NCBI RefSeq assembly: GCF_019649055.1
Contig: NW_026570388.1
Span: 62,001-126,000, forward strand
Reading direction: 5' to 3'
Origin: Paramacrobiotus metropolitanus
Taxonomy: Eukaryota; Tardigrada; Eutardigrada; Parachela; Macrobiotidae
Length of the DNA: 64,000 nt
The notes under the pieces: generated by a model
The model's database searches: none
Told to the model about the DNA's origin: nothing
What the model saw: the letters and a program-made list of their open reading frames with translations, nothing else
Position numbers and translations under genes: made by a program
Shown here: in pieces, positions 8,632-19,897 of the stretch
Position numbering within the stretch: position 1 is the stretch's first letter
How the letters are laid out: every line of letters begins with the position of its first letter

Positions 8632-9095
8632 GCTGCGTAGTTCGACCGAAATGTTGCCTCCACTGGGGTTCAGAGGTTCGCGGAATGAAAACCGAACGCA
8701 TCTGCTACCATGTCAGATATGACACAGAAGCAGAGAGCAAAAAGGGAGCAAATATCTCTCCTTTATTGAGAATCAATAAAGCAACCCACAAAAACAGCAC
8801 AGAAAAACCAATGCGGAAAAGCTGTGGTGAAAAGTGGCTGCCAGCGAGCTCGGTGGAAATCGTGATAATGCCGCGGCATGCAGCAGCTGAATCACAGCTG
8901 GTACCGCAAAGCATGGGATCGCTCGTAAGCGCTGGGCCACACCTCCAAAGTGCATAGCGAACGCTGATTGGTCAGCGTAGACAAAGTATACGCTGAGTTA
9001 TCAGCGTATATGAGCGGCACGGATGGCGTAGCCATACGCGTGCGGGCGACAGAGCAAGCCACTAGAGGTGTCAACCAACTCGTGTGAGCGGTCTC

Positions 9096-9570
9096 TGACA
9101 CTACTAAATTTTACGCAATTTGGGGTGTGTAATTTTTGTAGTTAGTTGGTTTCATAAAAATGTAGCGGAAGTATCGCCAAAGTGCGTTTTAGGGACTTCC
9201 GGTGTGTTTTTTCGGGATGAAATGCACATGATCTGCAGCATAAACATGAAACATTTGCGCGAAAAAAACTGTTTTTATTGCGTTTTAACTGCACCTAGGA
9301 AGCCATGATTCTGCGTTCATAACAGATGGAATATAATCGATACCAACACTCTACCCGGAAGATAGACAGATTCTAAAATTCAAAAAAATAATAGAAAATT
9401 TTAACGTAGCTAACACACGTTTACGGGAAAATATAATCACGGAAATCCGAGATAAATTAATTGTGTAACAAAAATCGACTATACGCCGTAAAAATCTCCG
9501 GGGAAACCTCATCAAAAAGTTATAATTAATCCATAACTGGCTTTAATTTCCAAAAAAATCCCTACTTTAC
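9096..9570. other. Left flank of the DNA transposon, no gene
   Basis: AT-rich, without a convincing open frame. It contains the first octamer copy (9441-9448). CACTACT at 9096 resembles a CACTA-type end, but no matching terminal repeat was found on the right, so the left end of the transposon is unresolved. Confidence 0.4.
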
Positions 9571-12471
9571 TTAAATCCATCGAGTAAATGCTCGACGCAA
9601 AATACAAGGATTTCCTGCCATTATTCTTTCAGTAAGTCTTCTGCGCCCGCCGCCCTCTTCTGCTTCTTCCGCGGGTTGCTTACGCATCATCACGCGGAAC
9701 TTCGAGAAATAGCTGCCGATAGTTTGACCCAGACTCTGAGGAGGTTTCCCCGGGCATTTTGCTTCGGGCAACTGACCAAGAAAGTCTGCAGAGTAACCAA
9801 CTCTCAGCTGATAATAATTAGGAAATGAATATCTCTTGCATGGATTTCCTTAATTTATAAATTTGTAACATACAAACTTACGCCCAATAGCGGCAACCAA
9901 CTTCGGATGCATCTTTGAAATCCCGGCGCGCGGTGAAGGCTTTTTTTCAGCCAAAAATCGCTGTACACCTTCTTCACCACCCAACAAAAATGCCGCCAGG
10001 TTGCAAGCTAAATTAGCTTTGGACTTCCAACGGCTCACTAGTGACTGGAGATGCGGATATTCAATGTACACCCCGGTATATGGAGCCAGTTCTCTTTTCT
10101 TTTCACACTGTACCAAATAAGGATACCCTGAAAACACATAATCCTGGATTTCCATGTCATAACTCAGAACTAATCAGACCGCAACAAATTACCTTTTCCT
10201 GTCGGTGGCTTTTTCGGCAGTAAATCTGTTCGGTAAAAAATTATCTTTATTCAGTAGTTTAAAACCGCTATTGGCCCAAAACAAGATTGCAGTATACAAA
10301 GTCTTTCTGTTTCGTACTTACCGCTGGAGCTGCCAGATGATGACAGAGGCTGCGGAGATCGACTGCGCCTTTTCTTATGCTTTTTGCGTTGTTTGCGTTC
10401 ACGTTCTGGAATAACAAATATTACTACGAAAATAATTTAGGAAATCCCTGCTTTACCTTCGGCATGGCGCTTACGTTTTGCGCGACTTCGCTTTGAACCT
10501 GCAATACATATTTTACGAGTTAGTAACCGTAGTGTTCTCATTAATTTCTAAAAAATCGTACTTTCTTCCGAATCGCTGGATGAGGACGAACTGCTGTCCC
10601 GCTTTCTTTTCTCTAAATGACGGTCGAACGGATTATGAACTGATTTGCGAAAAACTGTGTGTAAATACTTTTATGACGGCGCTTGGCATCTTGGTCGTGT
10701 TCCTCCTTATTTGGTGGTGCAGAACTGTCATCCACATTCTTGCTTCCTGGATTGGCCGTATACACCATGATGCGTTACGTACATATTTACATTAATTACA
10801 TTGTGACATTGTTTTACTAACCAGCGCTCTGTTTTTCATTCAGACTTAATCCAGGAAATCCTTGTTTTTTTTCTGCAAATGAATTAACAATGTGGTGTGT
10901 ACACAAGCACATGCAAAAATGATGGATGTACTGTAGACTGTAGTGAACAGCATTACCTCCGCTCTTTAAGCTCGCTGTAGCAACCGATTGACCAAAGGCG
11001 CCAGCAGCTACGCGCTTTAAACAGAGACAGTTAACAACAGTTTAATAATTTCAAAACTCTGCTACCTCTGGAATTTTCCGCATGGAAGAGGCGGGCTCTG
11101 GAGGAACTGCTCGAATGCCACCATTGGCGACTGCCGTATTCCGTTGAAGAGCCTGCGTTTCCTTCTTGTTAGCCTCCGTTGACGTAGTCGGAGCAGACTT
11201 TTCCTACAAAATTAAAAAAAGTATTTTTACGCGGATTTCCAGAATTACCTTAATCACATAAACCTCTTACCCAACTTCTTTCCAGTTTGTCTTTTACCGA
11301 ACTAGCTTGAGACACAGAATTACAAACTGCAAGGATTTCCGCGGGATATGGTCGTCCGTTATAGGACGTCAAAATACGATCGTAGTGACTAAATCCGTCC
11401 GCGGCAATGGAAAAGCGTGTTAACACATCTGGATAAATCGGGTCAACGTCGAATTCCAAAGCCGATTTTAACGCAACGATGTTGTCTCCTTGAAATCGGA
11501 TGACGAGTGTTTCTAGAAAAATTGTTATTCTGTTAAATATTATTGTTTTTGGATTTCCAAGCTAGTTTTCACATCCATAAAACTTACGTTTTCTCTCCGT
11601 CAGCAGTTGGACGGCTTTTTCGAAGTTGTCGAGTGGTTCCACCGGAGACCCTTCTTTCTGCGGAATACAAAATAATTAACAATATATCAGAAGAAACATT
11701 CAAAAAGCTTCAAAAAAAACCTGGAAATCCTGGTCTTTTTCGTTTCTGCTGGGGTTCCGATTTTCCTCTGCGTCACCTAAGTGAAACTGGCAATAAAGTT
11801 AACCCGACAAAGCAAATCAATCGAAATATTAGAAATTAGTGGGACGATTCCTTTAAACAATGCTAAAAATTAAATAAATTACTTAATACCCAGTGAAAAA
11901 CAGCAACATTGTATGCAATGACAAGAAACTTACTTTCCGTGGATTTCCCTGAAGAAACGTTTGCTTCTGCAACCTTTCTCAACTCTTTCATAGGAACCAT
12001 CTTGGGTAGAACGGGTTTTTCAGGTGTGGGAGTGGTAGCTGGAAACTCGAAAACAATAAATCCCACAAGAAAGCAGTGCTGCCAGATCTTTTATTAAGGA
12101 ATTCCATTTTTTATTATTTACTGTTTTTCAAACAAGAAACGTTCAAACATCCAAGTTTTTTACCTTTTTTGGCCTCTTTTGGCATTTCTTTGGCGGATTC
12201 ATATTTTGCTGGCGGTTTTGTACGTCGGGCGGGACGCTTGACTTCAGGAACGGCCTTGAATTTTTCTGAAAATCAGATAAAGCTCAAAGTTTCGAAGGAA
12301 AGGTCGACCGAAAAGTGTCAGAATTACCAGAGTTCGACTGCTTCTTTTTCCTGCCACCAAAGGGTTGAATTTCTTGGATTTCCTGGATTTCTTGTTCGTT
12401 ACCTTAATAAAAGTTCACGTTTTTCAACAATTTAAACCTTTCTTAAACATTCATTTACCATTTTTGGACAT
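9571..12471 (-). CDS. BEN-domain-like transposon protein, 17 exons, about 566 aa
   Basis: Seventeen exons keep a consistent phase from ATG (12471) to TAA (9571): 12459-12471, 12328-12402, 12164-12265, 11934-12038, 11721-11776, 11588-11657, 11271-11512, 11066-11203, 10957-11014, 10822-10872, 10669-10746, 10562-10639, 10457-10498, 10322-10405, 10193-10225, 9882-10127 and 9571-9800. The protein has a basic N-terminal half with KRPARR-type runs, a Ser/Arg-Lys tract (KRKRDSSSSS, KKHKKRRSRS), then a globular C-terminus (about 410-530). There the pattern LACNLAAFLL..EE....F ... MHPKLVAAIGRKF fits a BEN domain, a sequence-specific DNA-binding fold. Many introns are phase 1. It is transcribed away from the transposase. 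It is a candidate binder of the dispersed octamer; that role is inferred. Confidence 0.75.
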
Positions 12472-12820
12472 TTTCAGCTGCTAGTAAGTTAACAAAGGCG
12501 TACAGAATCATTTAACGAAGAGAAAAGTGGGAACACTTTGAGCGCTCGATGCTCAAATAACTTTCGCTTGCAACGGTTGCGCAGCTCGCAGTCCGAATGA
12601 ACGCGAATGAACGCCAGATGCGCAGCATCTGAAACGTTTGAACTCGTAACCAATCATACAGAGTGGGCGACGTCCGCTGTGACGTTGTCATGTTTTTACG
12701 CTTTCCAGCGATTAAGTGCTGCGCAATGTTAATTACGGTATAGAACTTGAGTTTTTCGAGTTCTGGTTTTTTTAGTTTATCCTAAATCAACCCGACAGTG
12801 ATACCTGAAATTTTACAATC
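12472..12820. promoter_or_regulatory. Shared divergent promoter of BEN-like gene and transposase
   Basis: The 349 bp between the two divergent ATGs (12471 minus, 12821 plus) has no open frame. It holds short repeats such as GCGAATGAACGC/GAATGAACGCGAATG near 12595-12612. One bidirectional promoter could drive both genes. No exact octamer falls inside it; the nearest are at 12376 and 12981. Confidence 0.55.
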
Positions 12821-15517
12821 ATGAGTAAAAAACCAAGAGTTTTTTATAATTCGTATCTTCGTGATCCTAGTGAGCAGATAACTGCGCGTCAAAAGCGACA
12901 GATTGAGAAGAGCCGTGAAAAAACCCGTGTTGCAGCAGCGGAGAAAATTATCGATTCCTTTCTGCCTTTCGATAACTCAGGGATTTCCCAGCAAGGTGAA
13001 GACTCTTCGAGTGAGTGCGGCAGCGAATCCGACTGCGAATCCATTGCCAGTGATATTGAGACAGACGCGGAATGGACAGATAACGAACTGGGGGATGATA
13101 GTTATGCGCAAAGACTTGAAGGCGAGAGGTTAAGCGCGCCGTTGTACGAGGGATCGGCCATATCGCTCGGGGAATATGTCCATCTCCAACTGGCTTTTGC
13201 GCGACGCCATAACCTGTCTCGACAAGCCACAATCGGATTGTTTCAGAAAGACGCAAAAATCCTTCCTGTTTCTGGTCAGGATTTCCCACAGTCGTGGTTC
13301 AAACTGGCGAAACTACTTACTGGATATTTACCGGATTATCGCGTTCATTACTTCTGCTCCGAGCATAATTGTTATCTTGGATTTCCAGCTTTAGATGAAA
13401 ATGAACTACAGTTTCCCACTGATCACCAGATGATTAATATCAAAGATAAGTGTGTTAAGAAAATGGCCTACTTTACCTATGTGTCAGTGGCAGAAACTCT
13501 CAAAATCTTCTTGAAAGCAAATCATCGAAAAATCCGATTCAATCCGACCGAAAATGCAGCCGGCGAAATTCGGGATTTGACAGATGGATCCATGTATCGC
13601 TGTTGCCGACAGAATTTTGGGATGGATCGCCCGTTTATTTCCTTGTCTATTCACTTAGACAATGCAACACCTCATAAAGGGAAATCCGCGAATAAGAATA
13701 CCTGTTATGTTGGACAGTTTACAATCAATGAGATGAGGCGCGTCGATCGCCAGCGGCATGTTTTTCCTTTCCTGATTTATTGCGGTAAGGATAAAAATTG
13801 GTATCAAATCTATCATTCTTTCTCAGTAATCAGTGCCGTTACTTAAAATTAGGACTACCGTGTTATAACAAAAATTTCAAGTTATTTAATTCTCGGCAAC
13901 ATCAGTTGATGGCTAATCGTAATTGCAGGACGAAAGATGCCGCCCCGTGACACATTACTTGCTCCTTTCATTGATGAAATTAATCATCTTATGACAAATG
14001 GACTACTTTGTGAGATTCAAGGAAATCCTACATTGATCACAGTGTTTCCGGTCTTATTTCCATGCGATACTGTTGAAAGAAATCGTTTGATGGAAGTGAA
14101 AGGCCACACTGGATACTACAGTTGTACGACTTGTACTCAAAAAGGCAGCCTCTCGGGAACGCTTATATTTGAGTACAGTGACCAGCTACCTTTACGGAAT
14201 CATCAAAAGCATATGGAATTAGCTTTAATGGCCGCCAACTACGACAAGAACCAGAAAAAGAAAATGGAGGATAAGTTGAAGGGTGTAAGGGGGATTTCCG
14301 TTCTGTCTGCCCTATCACTCCCAGTTGTGAATTTCCCCAGAAGTTTTACCTCGGATTTCCTTCATTTGATTTGCGAGGGCATTTATAAGACTATGCTGGA
14401 GTTTTGGATTAATAATGAATTCCTGGATATCCAAAATTCGGATTGGTCGCTTTCCCTTTGTAAGCCACACTTGTGTGTAAAAAGATTGGTTCGCTCAATA
14501 ATGGACTATCACAGCCAATTTGACGGCGGTGAGTTGTTGTTTCTTCTTATGTTTTTTGGCCCAGCAGCATTTCACGGAAATTTGGATAAAAATCTGTATA
14601 TACATTATCTGAAGTTGGTCCGTATCTGCCATTTTTTGTTAAGTGATTCTCTGCCAACTGCGTTGCTTTGCGCGCTTAACATAGAAGTGCATAATTTCAT
14701 CAAGGATTTCCAACAGCTTTACGGAAAAGAAAAGATGGGATCGAATGTCCATCAGCTGCTCCATGTTGTAGGCCAAATGGAAGACTGGGGCCCGGCAAAC
14801 CATTACTGGACGTTCCATTGTGAATCCAATATTGGATGCATCATGAGACGCTTACATGGAAGTCAGCATTTGAGTAAAGAGATCGCGAAAACATCAACTT
14901 TAGCGCTCTGTGAGACCTGCCTGGAAAGCTATTTTGGAGGCGGGAACACAAACGGACGAGACTTGTTTCTGAGTGGACTGAAAAACACGCAACAGAAAAA
15001 GGGCGCCATAATTGTGTACTCAAATGATACGGTTGCGGTTCTGAATGGCGAAATCATTAGTGAAATGTCTCTTCGAAAAAGATTTTTGGATTTCCATGAT
15101 GTGGCGTTGAAATTACTGCATGAAGCGGTTGGGCAGGATGTTACCGTGATCGGGTTTTCAAAATCCTGTGTGGTCAATGCCGGCTTTACCTGCAAGGCCG
15201 CAAACACCGAAAGCTCAGATCGAAATTCGTCCTTCATTTTTACGAATGCGAAAGAGATTGTCAAAGTGGAGTGGAGTGTAGCTGCAGAAGACCATACGGG
15301 ACAAGCCAGTATTTTTTTAATTGGAAAAGTGCACAATTATAACCTCTCAACGCTGTTTTTAAAAGACAGGGATTTCCCGGTTTTTTTTGAATTACTTAAT
15401 GTTTCTGAGTATACTGCAGTACTTTCAACTAATGCCTTGTCTGCTGTTATGCAGTGCAGCAGCGGTGCTCGAGTTACTGTGGCCAAAATCCCTAGTTGTT
15501 TACATTTAGATCTGTGA
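12821..15517 (+). CDS. Transposase_21-like transposase, 2 exons, about 850 aa
   Basis: Exon 1 12821-13784, intron 13785-13928 (GTAAGG...TTGCAG), exon 2 13929-15517; the split codon is a glycine, giving 2553 nt. Residues 1-110 are basic then acidic/Ser-rich. The catalytic region matches the animal 'transposase domain-containing' (tnp2/Transposase_21) pattern: LLAPFIDEINHL, then FPCDTVERN (D about 368), GHTGYYSCTTCTQKG, FTSDFLHLICEGIY (D about 464), FFGPAAFHGNL, SNVHQLLHVVG and FHCESNIGCIMR (E about 620). These give a plausible DDE triad. It would cut and rejoin the element's ends. Octamers fall inside both exons without breaking the frame. The coding sequence has no stop or frameshift that I can see. 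Confidence 0.8.
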
Positions 15518-15765
15518 ATTCTTAAATAAATAATAACATCGAATTCAAGTATTTTATTCATTCAGCGAAAGTTTAGTTCAAATTTCTCAAGACAAAACAG
15601 GAACATTCCATGCTCATGCGAATGAGCAGTCCAAAGATCAATCACTATGTAAAAGTAATCAAACCACGAGCACTGTACAGCAGACTGCGTGACCGTTAGA
15701 ACTAAAGTGTACAAACAATATCTGGACTTCCCCGGGTGGATAAAAATCTTATTTCAGTAATGCAT
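15518..15765. other. Short spacer between convergent transposon genes
   Basis: AT-rich 3' flank of the transposase with AATAAAT just after the stop, a possible polyadenylation signal for the plus-strand gene. The minus-strand zinc-finger gene ends on the other side. Confidence 0.4.
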
Positions 15766-15905
15766 TCATGGAAATCCACGCAAAAATGATTTCACTATCA
15801 AAAAGGTGCAGTAACGCCTATTCAAATCAATGACAAAACAATCCCCCGGAAATCCTTGAACTATTTGTAGTGAGACGCCAGTTAACACATCAATCCATGG
15901 ATATC

Positions 15906-18333
15906 CTAGAAATAATGATTTTCGTAGTAGAGAGTCATCCGCTCTTGCCACACCTGAAATATAGCGAAATATAATACCAGAACAACACAGTGTGAAAGAA
16001 AACGTGGAGTGAAAGGTACTTACGCTTCCCCGGCTTTGCACGCTTCCGCCCGAGTGGACTGTGTTGGCGCTTTCAGTGCTTACAGCCGTGGCAGCACTGT
16101 TGCAAGACACCACTGTGGTCAAGCTGTCGGCGGACGTTTCGGTGTCAGCGGAGGTCACGCTTTCATTGGACGCCACACTTTCCGTGTCGGAATCCTCGGA
16201 TTCATGGACAACCGCCTTTGAAGGGCCAGCCAAGCGCCAGGAGAAGTAAACGGAGTGGACAGGACGGCCCGGTTGGACACTTAAGATGTACTCCGTGGTC
16301 GGTGGCACAACCTGCCGGCCGTTCTTGTAAACGCCTAACATCATCGTGGAAATCCAGGGTCCTTTGGGCTTACGAAAGTTGGAGCCGATAGCGACACGGC
16401 AGTCGTAGACAGCTTTGATACTGGGGCAGACAACTCTATGCTTCCAGTAGTTCACGTTATCGAAGTCATCATCATGTCCTCCAGTCAGCCATGGCACGCC
16501 GCACTGCTCACAAGCTCGATATTCCTCCTAAAATTTTGGAAATCCATTACTATAATTAAAACATTAAAACTTCATCTACGTACGCCCTTGTGGCTGGCTT
16601 TGAAGTGAGCCAAAAACATCCATTGAGTTCCCTCGAAATCACATCCAGTGCATTTCCATACATGTGGAATTTCAGGCTATAAATAAGAAAACTGAATTTT
16701 CCCCTGTTTATTGAATAGGTAACTATCAATTAATGATAGCGTCAAAACCAATTATTAATATAACAAACATTAGTACAAATAGTTTACCATTGTGCGCGAG
16801 TCATGCAGACGCAGCTTTGTCATGCGACGAGTATCACGGAGCAGACGGTAAACGTTTCCCAAAACCGCTGAGGGAGGCCCTACAAACACCTTGCTCCCTC
16901 CCTGTGCTAGTTCTTCACACAATCGTGGATATCCCAGGCTATTAAAATTTTAATTTTTAACGTTACTTTAATTATTAAAGAACACTTATATGCGTATTAC
17001 CTATCGGCGATTTTCATAGCAACCGGTCGCTGACCCAGTAAAATCAGTGGAACCAATACTGAGGCCACATGCTGTTCCACATTGTAGTAGACGGGCTTTG
17101 ATGTGCCAACGAAACCTTCCAATTTTTTCCCACAATATGATTAACTTTCATCAAGTCCATGCCACGAGGACACACCATCTCTTCGTACAGGCTAATGTCA
17201 AAACCACCACGCAGCAGAAAAAGCCCGAACCGCATAACTTGAGTGTCTTTCATATCACCGCATGAAAAGACTTTGTACAGACATTCAGGGATTTCCCGGA
17301 TTCGCGTGACGTCTGAATAAATGTAGCTGAAAATACACAAAACATGTATAGTACCAGGAAATCCGCGCAATTAATAGTAAACCATAATGTCAGAAATATT
17401 AACTGATACAAACTCATCAAAGTCAATGAATTTGCTACTTGCGTAAAACGTGCAGTACTGCAAAAAGAAGAAAGTCAGGTAACCAGCCTTTTCAGAACTC
17501 ACTTGAAAACCACTTCCAGCAGTCGCAAGTGATACACCGTGTCGTAGAACACGGCGCTTCCTGCCTTCAACGACTCAAAGAATTTCGGAACAACCTTCTT
17601 CAGCATGTGCATCTTCAGTTGTACAGGCTCCTTCAAAACCTGGCGAATGCGCTCCTCAGCGAGATTATATGCCTTTTCCGAATTAAATACAGGATTATTC
17701 TGGAAATCCATGATTGAATGGACGTTGCGTCCTGCTTTCGCTATTCAAACGTTCAAAACAGTCTGTGACCGTCGGAAATGAAACCCCAGTATCATAATGA
17801 TATAAACATTATTATTACTAATGTTTCTTACCGGATTCTTCGACATACAAGTATGCCCACGGAGACTTTTATAGTATGCTTTTTTAATGTTTAAGTATAA
17901 GTATAAGTTTAAGTATAAGTATAAGTATAAGTATATATAAGTATAAGTATAAGTTTAAGTATAAGTTTAAGTTTTAATGTTTAAGTATAAGTTTATAAGT
18001 ATGCTTTTTTAATGTTTAAATTTAACTATTAAGTAGTGTACCGGCGCTTGCAGTTGCAGTTATTGTTATCGTGGTGGCTATTGCCCACGGAGACTGTAAC
18101 ATAGTGGAGGGAAATCCGAGTTTCACCATATCAGCGCCTGATTCGATGACGGCCCAGTTAAAGGGCAAATCCAACACTATTTATAAAAATGAATTCAATG
18201 TATAAACAAAAAATTAAACCTGGCAAATATACATACAGGGCTTTTTCACGGTGTTTGCTGACATAAACACTCGAGTAGTGCCGTAGAAACGACCGCCAGG
18301 TTCTTCACGCTCATGATCACTATCGCTATCCAT
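15906..18333 (-). pseudogene. Transposon zinc-finger gene, interrupted
   Basis: Minus-strand multi-exon gene starting MDSDSDHEREEPGG (ATG at 18333). Exon 1 is 18237-18333; exon 2 begins at 18176 and is split by a 214-bp insertion; then 17503-17731, further exons to 16584-16676, 16024-16527 and 15906-15953. The 16584-16676 exon has a C2H2 finger (CTGCDFEG...HFKASH) and the next exon has CEQC...H...C, followed by an acidic Ser/Thr/Val-rich tail. The middle (about 16740-17330) is an unrecognised globular domain. Two lesions: the insertion with 14-bp duplications, and an apparent one-base deletion near 17092, where the frame shifts between two matching halves. The intron near 17400-17500 is uncertain. 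If the last intron is not spliced the frame runs to 15766. Confidence 0.6.
17854..18095. mobile_element. 214-bp retroposon-like insertion with 14-bp target duplication
   Basis: TGCCCACGGAGACT occurs at 17854-17867 and 18082-18095. Between them lie 214 bp, mostly degenerate (TAAGTA)n, with a non-repetitive head (18018-18081) at the far end. Removing the insert and one repeat restores a continuous exon frame in the zinc-finger gene. A head, a simple-sequence tail and a target duplication of this length fit SINE-type insertion. Confidence 0.75.
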
Positions 18334-18449
18334 CGTGCGCCAGATGTTACGACAACTGCTTTTAAAACCAGACAGTTTCAGTAAAGACCAACAATATGGG
18401 TAACTAGAACCGAAAAAATAGTAAGTTTTAACATAAAACCCGGAAATCC

Positions 18450-19897
18450 AAATCTACAAGAGTCGAACTTTTAAGAATCAAAAATGTAGAAATTCACCCG
18501 CGAACCAGGAACTAAAAAATGAGGTTATGCAGAACTCAAAATTCCACGTGCGGAATGATTGCGCGTATGGTGCTGTCGCCACAGGGCGGACGCAACGCTA
18601 TCATGCGGGCTGTGGTTTCACATGTTTCCGCGATTATTTCTTAGTTATTTAAGTTATTTTTAGGCCTTAGTTTCTTAGATTTCTGAGGTTTTTTAGTTTT
18701 CTTAAGTTTTTTTATTTTTCTTAGGTTTTTTATTTTTTAGTCTTCTTATATTCTTTAGTTTTTTCGACTGTTGTAATAATTATTATTCTCTGACGGATGC
18801 AAGTTGCCGTCGTCAAGACTGTTTTACGGCGAATTGTCTCGTCGTCGAAATGGCCCCGCGACGAAATGTCTTGCGGTGGGATGTCCTCCCGAATAAATGT
18901 CCCGCGACGAAATGTCGCGATGCGAAATGTCCTTGCGGCGCAATGTCTGCGACTAAATGTCCTGCGACTAGTTGTCCTCGGCGAAATGTCGCGGTGCCTA
19001 ATATTGTTATGGTTTTATTACAGAGACTTTGGTCATCACCGGCCAGGTTCCTAGCCTTCTTATTCATATTCAGAATTCCAGTAATCAGAATCAGAGTTTC
19101 CGAATTCAGACTCAGACTTTTAGCATTCAGAATCAGACTTTTAGCATTCAGAATCAGATTCAGACTTTCAGCGCAGGCCTTCTAATAACTATTTACGCAT
19201 TGATGCAACGCTCTAGTTGGGAGACACAGCGCAGTAATGCCACCAGTCTTCTTGATTCCATCGAGTGTAACAACTCTTCCAGACTTTTTAAAAAAGCTTT
19301 AGTCTAAAAATTACTCGTACCCAATCGGTGCTGCCAGTTATTGTACACGTTTCGCCAGTTGTTGTACACATTTCGCGTTTCCTGAGCAGACAATGAAATA
19401 TTGATTCCACCGTCGCCGGTAAGTCCAGCCCTTTTAAGCAGTCTTTGGTTTGGTAACATGACCGTTATATGCCGGTCTTAATTCTTTGTACTTATGGTTA
19501 GGTTAGATTTTAAAAATGAAATGGGGAATATCAAATATCATCGCTGCTAACAAATCTCTTATCATAACCCATAGATAGTATTAGACACCGAGAAGCTCAA
19601 GCAATGGTAGATTCAAAAGCACATTATTCACACATCAGCTTCATTCTTTCTTCTTATGAATATCAAAAAATCTTGGCTCTGGGAAATAGCTTCTAGTACG
19701 GATTCTTAGGAGAACAAACATAAGGAAACCAAAGAAAACAGAAATCTGCGGCAGAAGCTATGAGAAAAAATTTGCGATTTCGACAGCTGAACGGAGATGG
19801 AAATGAGGATTGTGTTTTGAGGATTAATCCTGTTTTTGTTACAAACTGGTGAAGTGACTGGCTTGAGCTAATAAAAACAAGGATTGTATTGCTGCAG
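18450..19897. repeat. Intergenic composite of degenerate minisatellites
   Basis: No gene seen. Three repeat types follow each other: pyrimidine-rich TTTCTTAGG-like units (about 18640-18760), units like GCGACGAAATGTC and GCGACTAAATGTCC (about 18840-19000), and a 21-bp unit TTCAGAATCAGACTTTTAGCA (about 19060-19175). Open frames here merely follow the repeats. From 19300 to 19897 the sequence is AT-rich and unremarkable. The same TTTCTTAGG and GTCG-type units recur near 27 and 41 kb. Confidence 0.7.

Follow-up and report, generated by a model that had tools for sequence, protein, structure and literature searches.

A dyad-symmetric octamer conserved along the coding and non-coding interior of an EnSpm/CACTA-related transposon in the tardigrade Paramacrobiotus metropolitanus

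Results

An octamer tiles the element in the window

We analysed a 64-kb stretch of the genome of the tardigrade Paramacrobiotus metropolitanus (assembly GCF_019649055.1, contig NW_026570388.1, positions 62,001 to 126,000), hereafter the window, and found that an EnSpm/CACTA-related transposon within it is tiled by one short dyad, the octamer GGATTTCC/GGAAATCC, which is very probably under selection at the level of the DNA. Our reading, to which we assign a probability of roughly 0.45, is that the octamers would be selected binding sites for a family-specific, probably element-encoded marker protein, with a role most likely in anti-silencing.

Exact octamers number 31, the first at 9441 and the last at 18442-18449, with none in the remainder of the window. 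A preliminary description of this DNA had reported 30; the dense cluster and the absence of the octamer from the rest of the window stand, and the figure is corrected. The density in the element, ~3260 octamers per Mb, is ~70 times the genome average (8052 octamers in 169.8 Mb, or ~47 per Mb), and 18 other loci, fetched for another reason, hold 5 octamers in 55,454 bp. The expectation that the octamer would not be equally dense elsewhere is thereby borne out for the rest of the window, the genome and these loci.

Among all 8-mers in the element, the octamer has the top enrichment score by a wide margin. Its single-mismatch variants are unenriched as a group, with 11 in the element and ~11 expected from the remaining window (sums made by hand), the exception being GGATATCC (3 observed, 0.17 expected). 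The flanks of the sites are unrelated to one another except at dyad positions. In the extended dyad, CNNGGATTTCCNNG, a C at -3 occurs in 24/31 sites of the window copy and the mirror-position G in 18/31; the corresponding counts in a second full-length copy, on C87, are 19/25 and 14/25. GGA-NN-TCC with other centres is found 7 times in the window copy (9.5 kb), 8 times in the C87 copy (9.2 kb) and 28 times in 100 kb of background, and four gene-less copies hold 16 in 9.8 kb, mostly with TA and AT; other AT centres are thus tolerated in the gene-less copies.

The sites run through exons and introns alike, as had been noted from the letters: on our own gene models, the exons of genes A to C carry 15 sites in 4209 bp (3.56/kb), and the introns and intergenic DNA of the same genes carry 6 (3.45/kb). 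Octamers in coding sequence occupy all three codon phases. Their spacing is more even than random, both in the window copy (coefficient of variation, CV, 0.52; none of 20,000 simulations was as even) and in the C87 copy (CV 0.50, P 0.0001).

The preferred orientation changes near 15.6 kb, from 16 GGATTTCC:6 GGAAATCC before this point to 1:8 after it (P 0.004 by Fisher test, and P 0.015 by permutation of the best split). A shift is also seen in the C87 copy (13:5, then 1:6, P 0.021), which has many sites in common with the window copy. The shift is real yet modest, and as a flip it deserves less weight than it was first given: a single homologous position reads GGATTTCC in the gene-less copy L042 and GGAAATCC in L043; there the site has been retained and its direction has not.

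Sites are conserved among copies of the element

Searches with the left end and with the right end recovered the identical set of seven copies, each of which carries octamers: 31 in the window copy, 25 in the C87 copy, and 5, 5, 7, 6 and 6 in five gene-less copies of 2.2-2.8 kb each. By blastn, the gene-less interiors match the full elements at the ends only, so their octamers lie in unrelated sequence. The five 9-kb loci have no octamer in their flanking sequence. In all seven copies, 361-415 bp separate the left end from the outermost octamer on that side; at the right end the corresponding distance is 148-160 bp in six copies and 472 bp in the C87 copy. The outermost 148-472 bp of the copies contain no octamer, which rules out classical subterminal repeats.

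The window and C87 copies are 61% identical, and 17 of the 31 window octamers align with an octamer. As a shared word can pull an alignment, the octamers were masked before realignment; 11/31 then share a column and 18/31 fall within 10 columns, compared with means of 0.075 and 1.6 in a shifted-position control (maxima 2 and 8 of 2000). In the codon alignment of the transposase, 6/10 octamers are identical (6/8 seen from the C87 side) versus 147/2513 control 8-mers, and four of the six are touched by a codon whose amino acid has changed. Of 580 conserved degenerate codons, only 271 are the same in both copies; drift at silent positions has thus been extensive. With octamers masked, three pairs of gene-less copies keep 4/5, 3/7 and 2/5 octamers in a common column, where 9.6, 14.1 and 7.1% of background 8-mers are identical. 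Octamer positions are thus kept among copies while neighbouring bases drift, the pattern that the preliminary description had proposed to look for. Read from these alignments, purifying selection acts on both the sequence and the position of the sites, in coding and in non-coding DNA.

Distant relatives carry other dyad words

A transposase query matched 25 places, comprising the two full-length copies and 23 distant relatives, nine of which were read. Eight of the nine carry another dispersed dyad motif, and these form three families. Family 2 (L048, L052, L053 and L054) uses GTCGAC, mostly inside GGAGTCGACTCC or RGGTCGACCY, at 18-23 per 9.9 kb; family 3 (L049, L055 and L056) has 17-21 GTCGAC; and L051 contains GCGANNTCGC 22 times, versus once in the entire window. 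For comparison, the window has 17 GTCGAC in the 54 kb that do not belong to the element. The word of the window family also turns up in these relatives, with three GGATTTCC in L051 and one GGAAATCC in L049. Even spacing recurs in L055 (P 0.0001) and L056 (0/20,000 simulations); it fails as a rule for all families, with P 0.24-0.95 in L049, L048, L052, L053, L054 and L051. In family 2, the covariation stems from the presence of two or more types of site.

Family 3 sites are palindromes with variable, paired arms

The sites of family 3 are mostly TGNNNGTCGACNNNCA (or TT..AA), forming 16-bp palindromes around GTCGAC at an average spacing of 450-513 bp, and their NNN arms vary from site to site yet pair. 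In L055, complementarity at the three arm positions holds for 16, 16 and 17 of the 17 GTCGAC sites (shuffled means 5.8, 7.2 and 6.3), and no excess of complementarity was found there beyond 16 bp. The 21 sites of L049 give 17, 16 and 16. In the three loci together, T....GTCGAC....A occurs at 19 distinct sites; the palindrome is perfect in 14 of them, which between them have 13 different NNN. This covariation across sites is strong evidence for arm pairing.

L055 and L049 are 64% identical, and the comparison of their sites covers 23 rows. Sixteen sites are aligned in both: nine are identical, five differ by one base (three in the central TCGA, one in an arm, one at an end), one has two uncompensated arm bases and one a compensated pair. 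Two more columns hold a decayed L055 site, and one L055 site is misaligned in L049. As judged from this alignment, conservation of the sites between copies is clear; putative compensation in the arms was seen in one case, versus two uncompensated arm changes. The compensated case falls within the transposase gene, where two codons have changed synonymously, GCG to GCA and CCC to CCT. The other four coding sites comprise two that are identical and two that differ by one base; control 16-mers in this transposase comparison are identical in 27/2197.

Throughout the genome the TGNNNGTCGACNNNCA pattern occurs 363 times, its reversed control 236 times and a version with swapped ends 93 times; among the 24 TGNNNGTCGACNNNCA sites listed, 10 are by our own count perfect palindromes, lying in groups. 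For family 3 hairpins with other loops, some sites with a single-base change in the TCGA centre were seen, and otherwise no clear excess. Arm covariation was also considered for the window family and rejected, being confined to one weak position (15/31, P 0.009) in one of two copies; at that position the C87 copy gives 9/25, which is not significant. We know of no DNA sites whose arms vary freely and yet pair, and no precedent for such palindromes appeared in the titles and opening abstract lines of the literature retrieved. Family 3 may be the part of this system that exceeds a known kind.

Structure and classification of the element

The preliminary description had taken 9441-18449 to be the element. 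Its bounds are wider (Table 1): the right end is at 18609 and the left end lies outside the window, at C168:46265, because a 24.8-kb long terminal repeat (LTR) retrotransposon (C168:46316-71100) inserted ~51 bp inside it. The outer ~51 bp, with the left terminal repeat, are in this way separated from the rest of the element by 24.8 kb. The two LTRs are 99.74% identical, so the insertion is recent. An alternative left end, CACTACTAAA at 9099, was ruled out, as this is where the element and the LTR retrotransposon meet.

Table 1. Features of the element and its insertions, in window coordinates unless a contig is named
Feature	Position	Strand	Details
Right LTR	8711..9100	.	390 bp; 99.74% identical to left LTR, C168:46316-46705
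Left subterminal stretch	9102..9317	+	124-217 bp common to other copies, by copy; octamer-free
Octamer array	9441..18449	.	31 exact GGATTTCC/GGAAATCC; mean spacing 300 bp, CV 0.52
Gene B	9571..10768	-	7 exons, by-eye model, 270 amino acids; 1 exonic octamer
Gene A	10966..12471	-	9 exons, by-eye GT-AG model, 280 amino acids; 4 exonic octamers
Gene C, transposase	exons 12821-13784, 13929-15517	+	850 amino acids; 10 coding octamers
Gene D	16060..18333	-	multi-exon; start near 18333 by eye
SINE-like insertion	17868..18095	.	within gene D exon; TAAGTA repeats; octamer-free
Right terminal inverted repeat	18597..18609	-	CCCGCATGATAGC on minus strand

A CTG target duplication follows the right end at 18610-18612 and also precedes the left end at C168:46265. 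The copies start with CCCGCAYGATAG or near variants and have a similar inverted sequence at the other end. Their left ends read CCCGCA or CCCGTA in 7/7 copies, and CACTA or CACTG terminal repeats were found at none of the seven left ends. Six copies have exact 3-bp target duplications (CTG, AGA, TAA, ATT, GCT and ATA), and the C87 copy has no exact one. The gene C transposase had no direct Pfam match; P0001, a relative that carries PF02992, shows 28% identity to the second exon of gene C over 70% (E 6e-26), and through it gene C is assigned to the tnp2-type transposases. The CACTA label given at first is thus sustained by the transposase and the 3-bp target duplication and not by the termini, CCCGC, and we describe the element as EnSpm/CACTA-related, and not as a classical CACTA element, by these sequence features.

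Genes A and B lie to the left of the transposase and gene D to its right; A and B were spliced by eye, and D was left unspliced. Gene A has a lysine-rich N-terminus. The N-terminal half of gene B is rich in Arg, Lys and Ser, and its C-terminal part is 74% identical over 84 amino acids to the C87 copy. Gene D shares with the C87 copy the blocks 16060-16530, 16785-16937, 16994-17128, 17125-17343, 17544-17792 and 18082-18180. The insertion within it, resembling a short interspersed nuclear element (SINE), is bounded by a 14-bp target duplication, TGCCCACGGAGACT, at 17854-17867 and 18082-18095 (identified by eye), and its last ~95 bp recur at at least 27 other places in the genome at 84-92% identity. 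Elsewhere in the window, an array of F-box-like genes at 20224-52650 alternates with a second recurring family ('LVDGQLQHG' type) on both strands; F-box relatives are also present on other P. metropolitanus contigs.

Candidates for a binding protein

Single-exon queries with genes A and D match the two full-length copies only, and the C87 exon of gene A holds one internal stop. The corresponding gene B query matches these copies and one further place, C17:1133095-1133367, which encodes a gene B relative of 51% identity; the family end was not detected there, and this relative possibly belongs to another element or is a host gene. BEN-domain proteins bind short palindromes, and gene B encodes an accessory protein for which binding of a short dyad is likewise conceivable. 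A BEN domain, suspected in gene B by eye, is not supported: a Pfam scan to E 10 gave no BEN match, and neither PDB nor a low-confidence model of one exon pointed to one. From its sequence, gene B as a candidate octamer binder is our guess.

Discussion

The initial observation of a transposon saturated with one octamer is confirmed and extends further than could be seen from a single window. It had been coupled to a proposal of selection for a protein that coats, marks, silences or protects the whole element. The core of this proposal, selection on the octamer, is strongly supported, and the choice between silencing and protection is left undecided by sequence; coating or marking of the element by a putative protein is the best inference.

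In the mechanism that we propose, the sites would be maintained by selection on the DNA itself and read by a two-fold symmetric, dimeric, family-specific protein, most likely the product of gene A, B or D. This protein would act in trans along the body of the element, in full-length and gene-less copies alike, and the marking would most likely counter host silencing and leave the element accessible to its transposase. A family-specific, dimeric, trans-acting binder is suggested by the dyad symmetry, the swappable orientation, the exact core, the gene-less copies and the words peculiar to each family. That the octamers are bound by a protein at all we consider highly likely, and an origin of this putative binder in the element itself probable; anti-silencing as its purpose is put forward tentatively.

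By presumed function, the nearest system is VANC of the Arabidopsis VANDAL transposons. Excerpts of two reports (PMC5735166, PMC10398659) describe VANC as element-encoded and acting in trans along the element, through short family-specific motifs that are dense within it, and VANC21 and VANC6 as having targets with different motifs. The same excerpts place these motifs mainly in non-coding DNA, in dense arrays of one orientation spread by tandem repeats. The tardigrade element is alike in its high density of a family-specific short motif. It differs in that its exons are as rich in sites per kb as the remainder and that, in place of tandem arrays, single dyad-like sites with unrelated flanks stand ~300 bp apart, in an EnSpm/CACTA-related element of an animal host. 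With plant CACTA elements, for which an excerpt of PMC2613891 describes TnpA/TNP1 together with subterminal repeats, it shares a tnp2-related transposase, 3-bp target duplications, family-specific motifs (their binding being putative in the tardigrade) and poorly conserved accessory proteins; it differs in a motif that tiles the interior and leaves the outermost 148-472 bp free, and in its CCCGC ends. Among literature titles and abstract beginnings, the octamer as a word appeared in a single paper, on Plasmodium dhps, and nothing alike was found on CACTA elements with dispersed or palindromic motifs, on sites throughout an element, or on BEN domains and transposons. The portion consulted of a survey of tardigrade repeats (PMC11071193) lists CMC elements and does not mention such a motif.

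Several observations weigh against our reading. The five gene-less copies amount to three lineages and are not independent, as L041 and L042 are 90% identical and L044 and L045 99%, and 14/31 window octamers have no aligned octamer in the C87 copy. When identical amino acids are required, the transposase comparison falls to small numbers, 2/4 octamers versus 133/862 controls. One distant relative among those read, L050, shows no clear dispersed motif, and the covariation of the family 3 arms is not predicted by simple recognition of half-sites. As to the binder, there was no Pfam match above cut-off for genes A, B and C or for three open reading frame pieces of D; gene B had no relatives at E 0.001 and none in PDB, and the structure model of one of its exons is of low confidence (pLDDT 49.7). 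As to the purpose, gene-less copies gain nothing from expression, and anti-silencing must therefore help them through accessibility; moreover, tardigrades are not known to have CG methylation, the mark that VANC removes.

Anti-silencing receives the highest single weight among the purposes considered, and a role in transposition comes next, being nearly as good a fit to the octamer-free ends and to the gene-less copies. Here a TnpA-like protein along the body would condense the element, join its ends or block self-insertion. The sites in five gene-less copies, which need only to be moved, the even tiling of the interior, and the near-constant distance of the outermost sites from octamer-free ends (left in 7/7 copies, right in 6/7) all agree with such a role; classical TnpA sites, however, cluster subterminally in the excerpt of PMC2613891, where the octamer is absent, and we rate this role as rather unlikely.

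A single-stranded function, in which hairpins would form in RNA or DNA or GGATTTCC would pair with GGAAATCC within one molecule, draws on the near-complete arm complementarity in L055 and on the family 3 site where a double synonymous change preserves the palindrome. The octamer palindrome of the window family is too short for a hairpin and its arms hardly covary, introns, intergenic DNA and gene-less copies carry sites alike, and uncompensated arm changes also separate family 3 copies, which leaves this function improbable.

We consider it less probable still that a host protein binds the sites, whether exploited by the element or used by the host to recognise or repress it. The presence of the octamer genome-wide at background level makes a host factor conceivable, but repression by the host would select against the sites, which are conserved, and differing motifs among families are more easily explained by family-specific proteins.

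The AT content of the element is higher than that of much of the DNA around it, yet an origin of the enrichment as a side effect of base composition, of tandem duplication or of peptide motifs in common is ruled out for practical purposes by the unenriched single-mismatch neighbours, the unrelated flanks outside the dyad positions, the use of all codon phases and of non-coding DNA, and the octamers in unrelated gene-less interiors.

Going beyond the window family, it is conceivable, although we would not favour it over its negation, that the whole EnSpm/CACTA-related group marks itself, each family having a dyad word, placed at intervals of a few hundred bases in genes and non-coding DNA alike, and a protein of its own; in family 3 the self-complementarity itself would be read, a code that would shape the transposase and could be moved by compensatory synonymous changes. 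To our knowledge, sequence-specific self-marking of transposons is known only from the Arabidopsis VANDALs. If our reading is correct, such self-marking would exist in animals and in another superfamily, with sites kept inside coding exons. The families would then amount to a natural collection of protein-site pairs, diverged inside a single genome, and would offer a direct route to asking how transposon DNA is protected or handled by the transposon itself.

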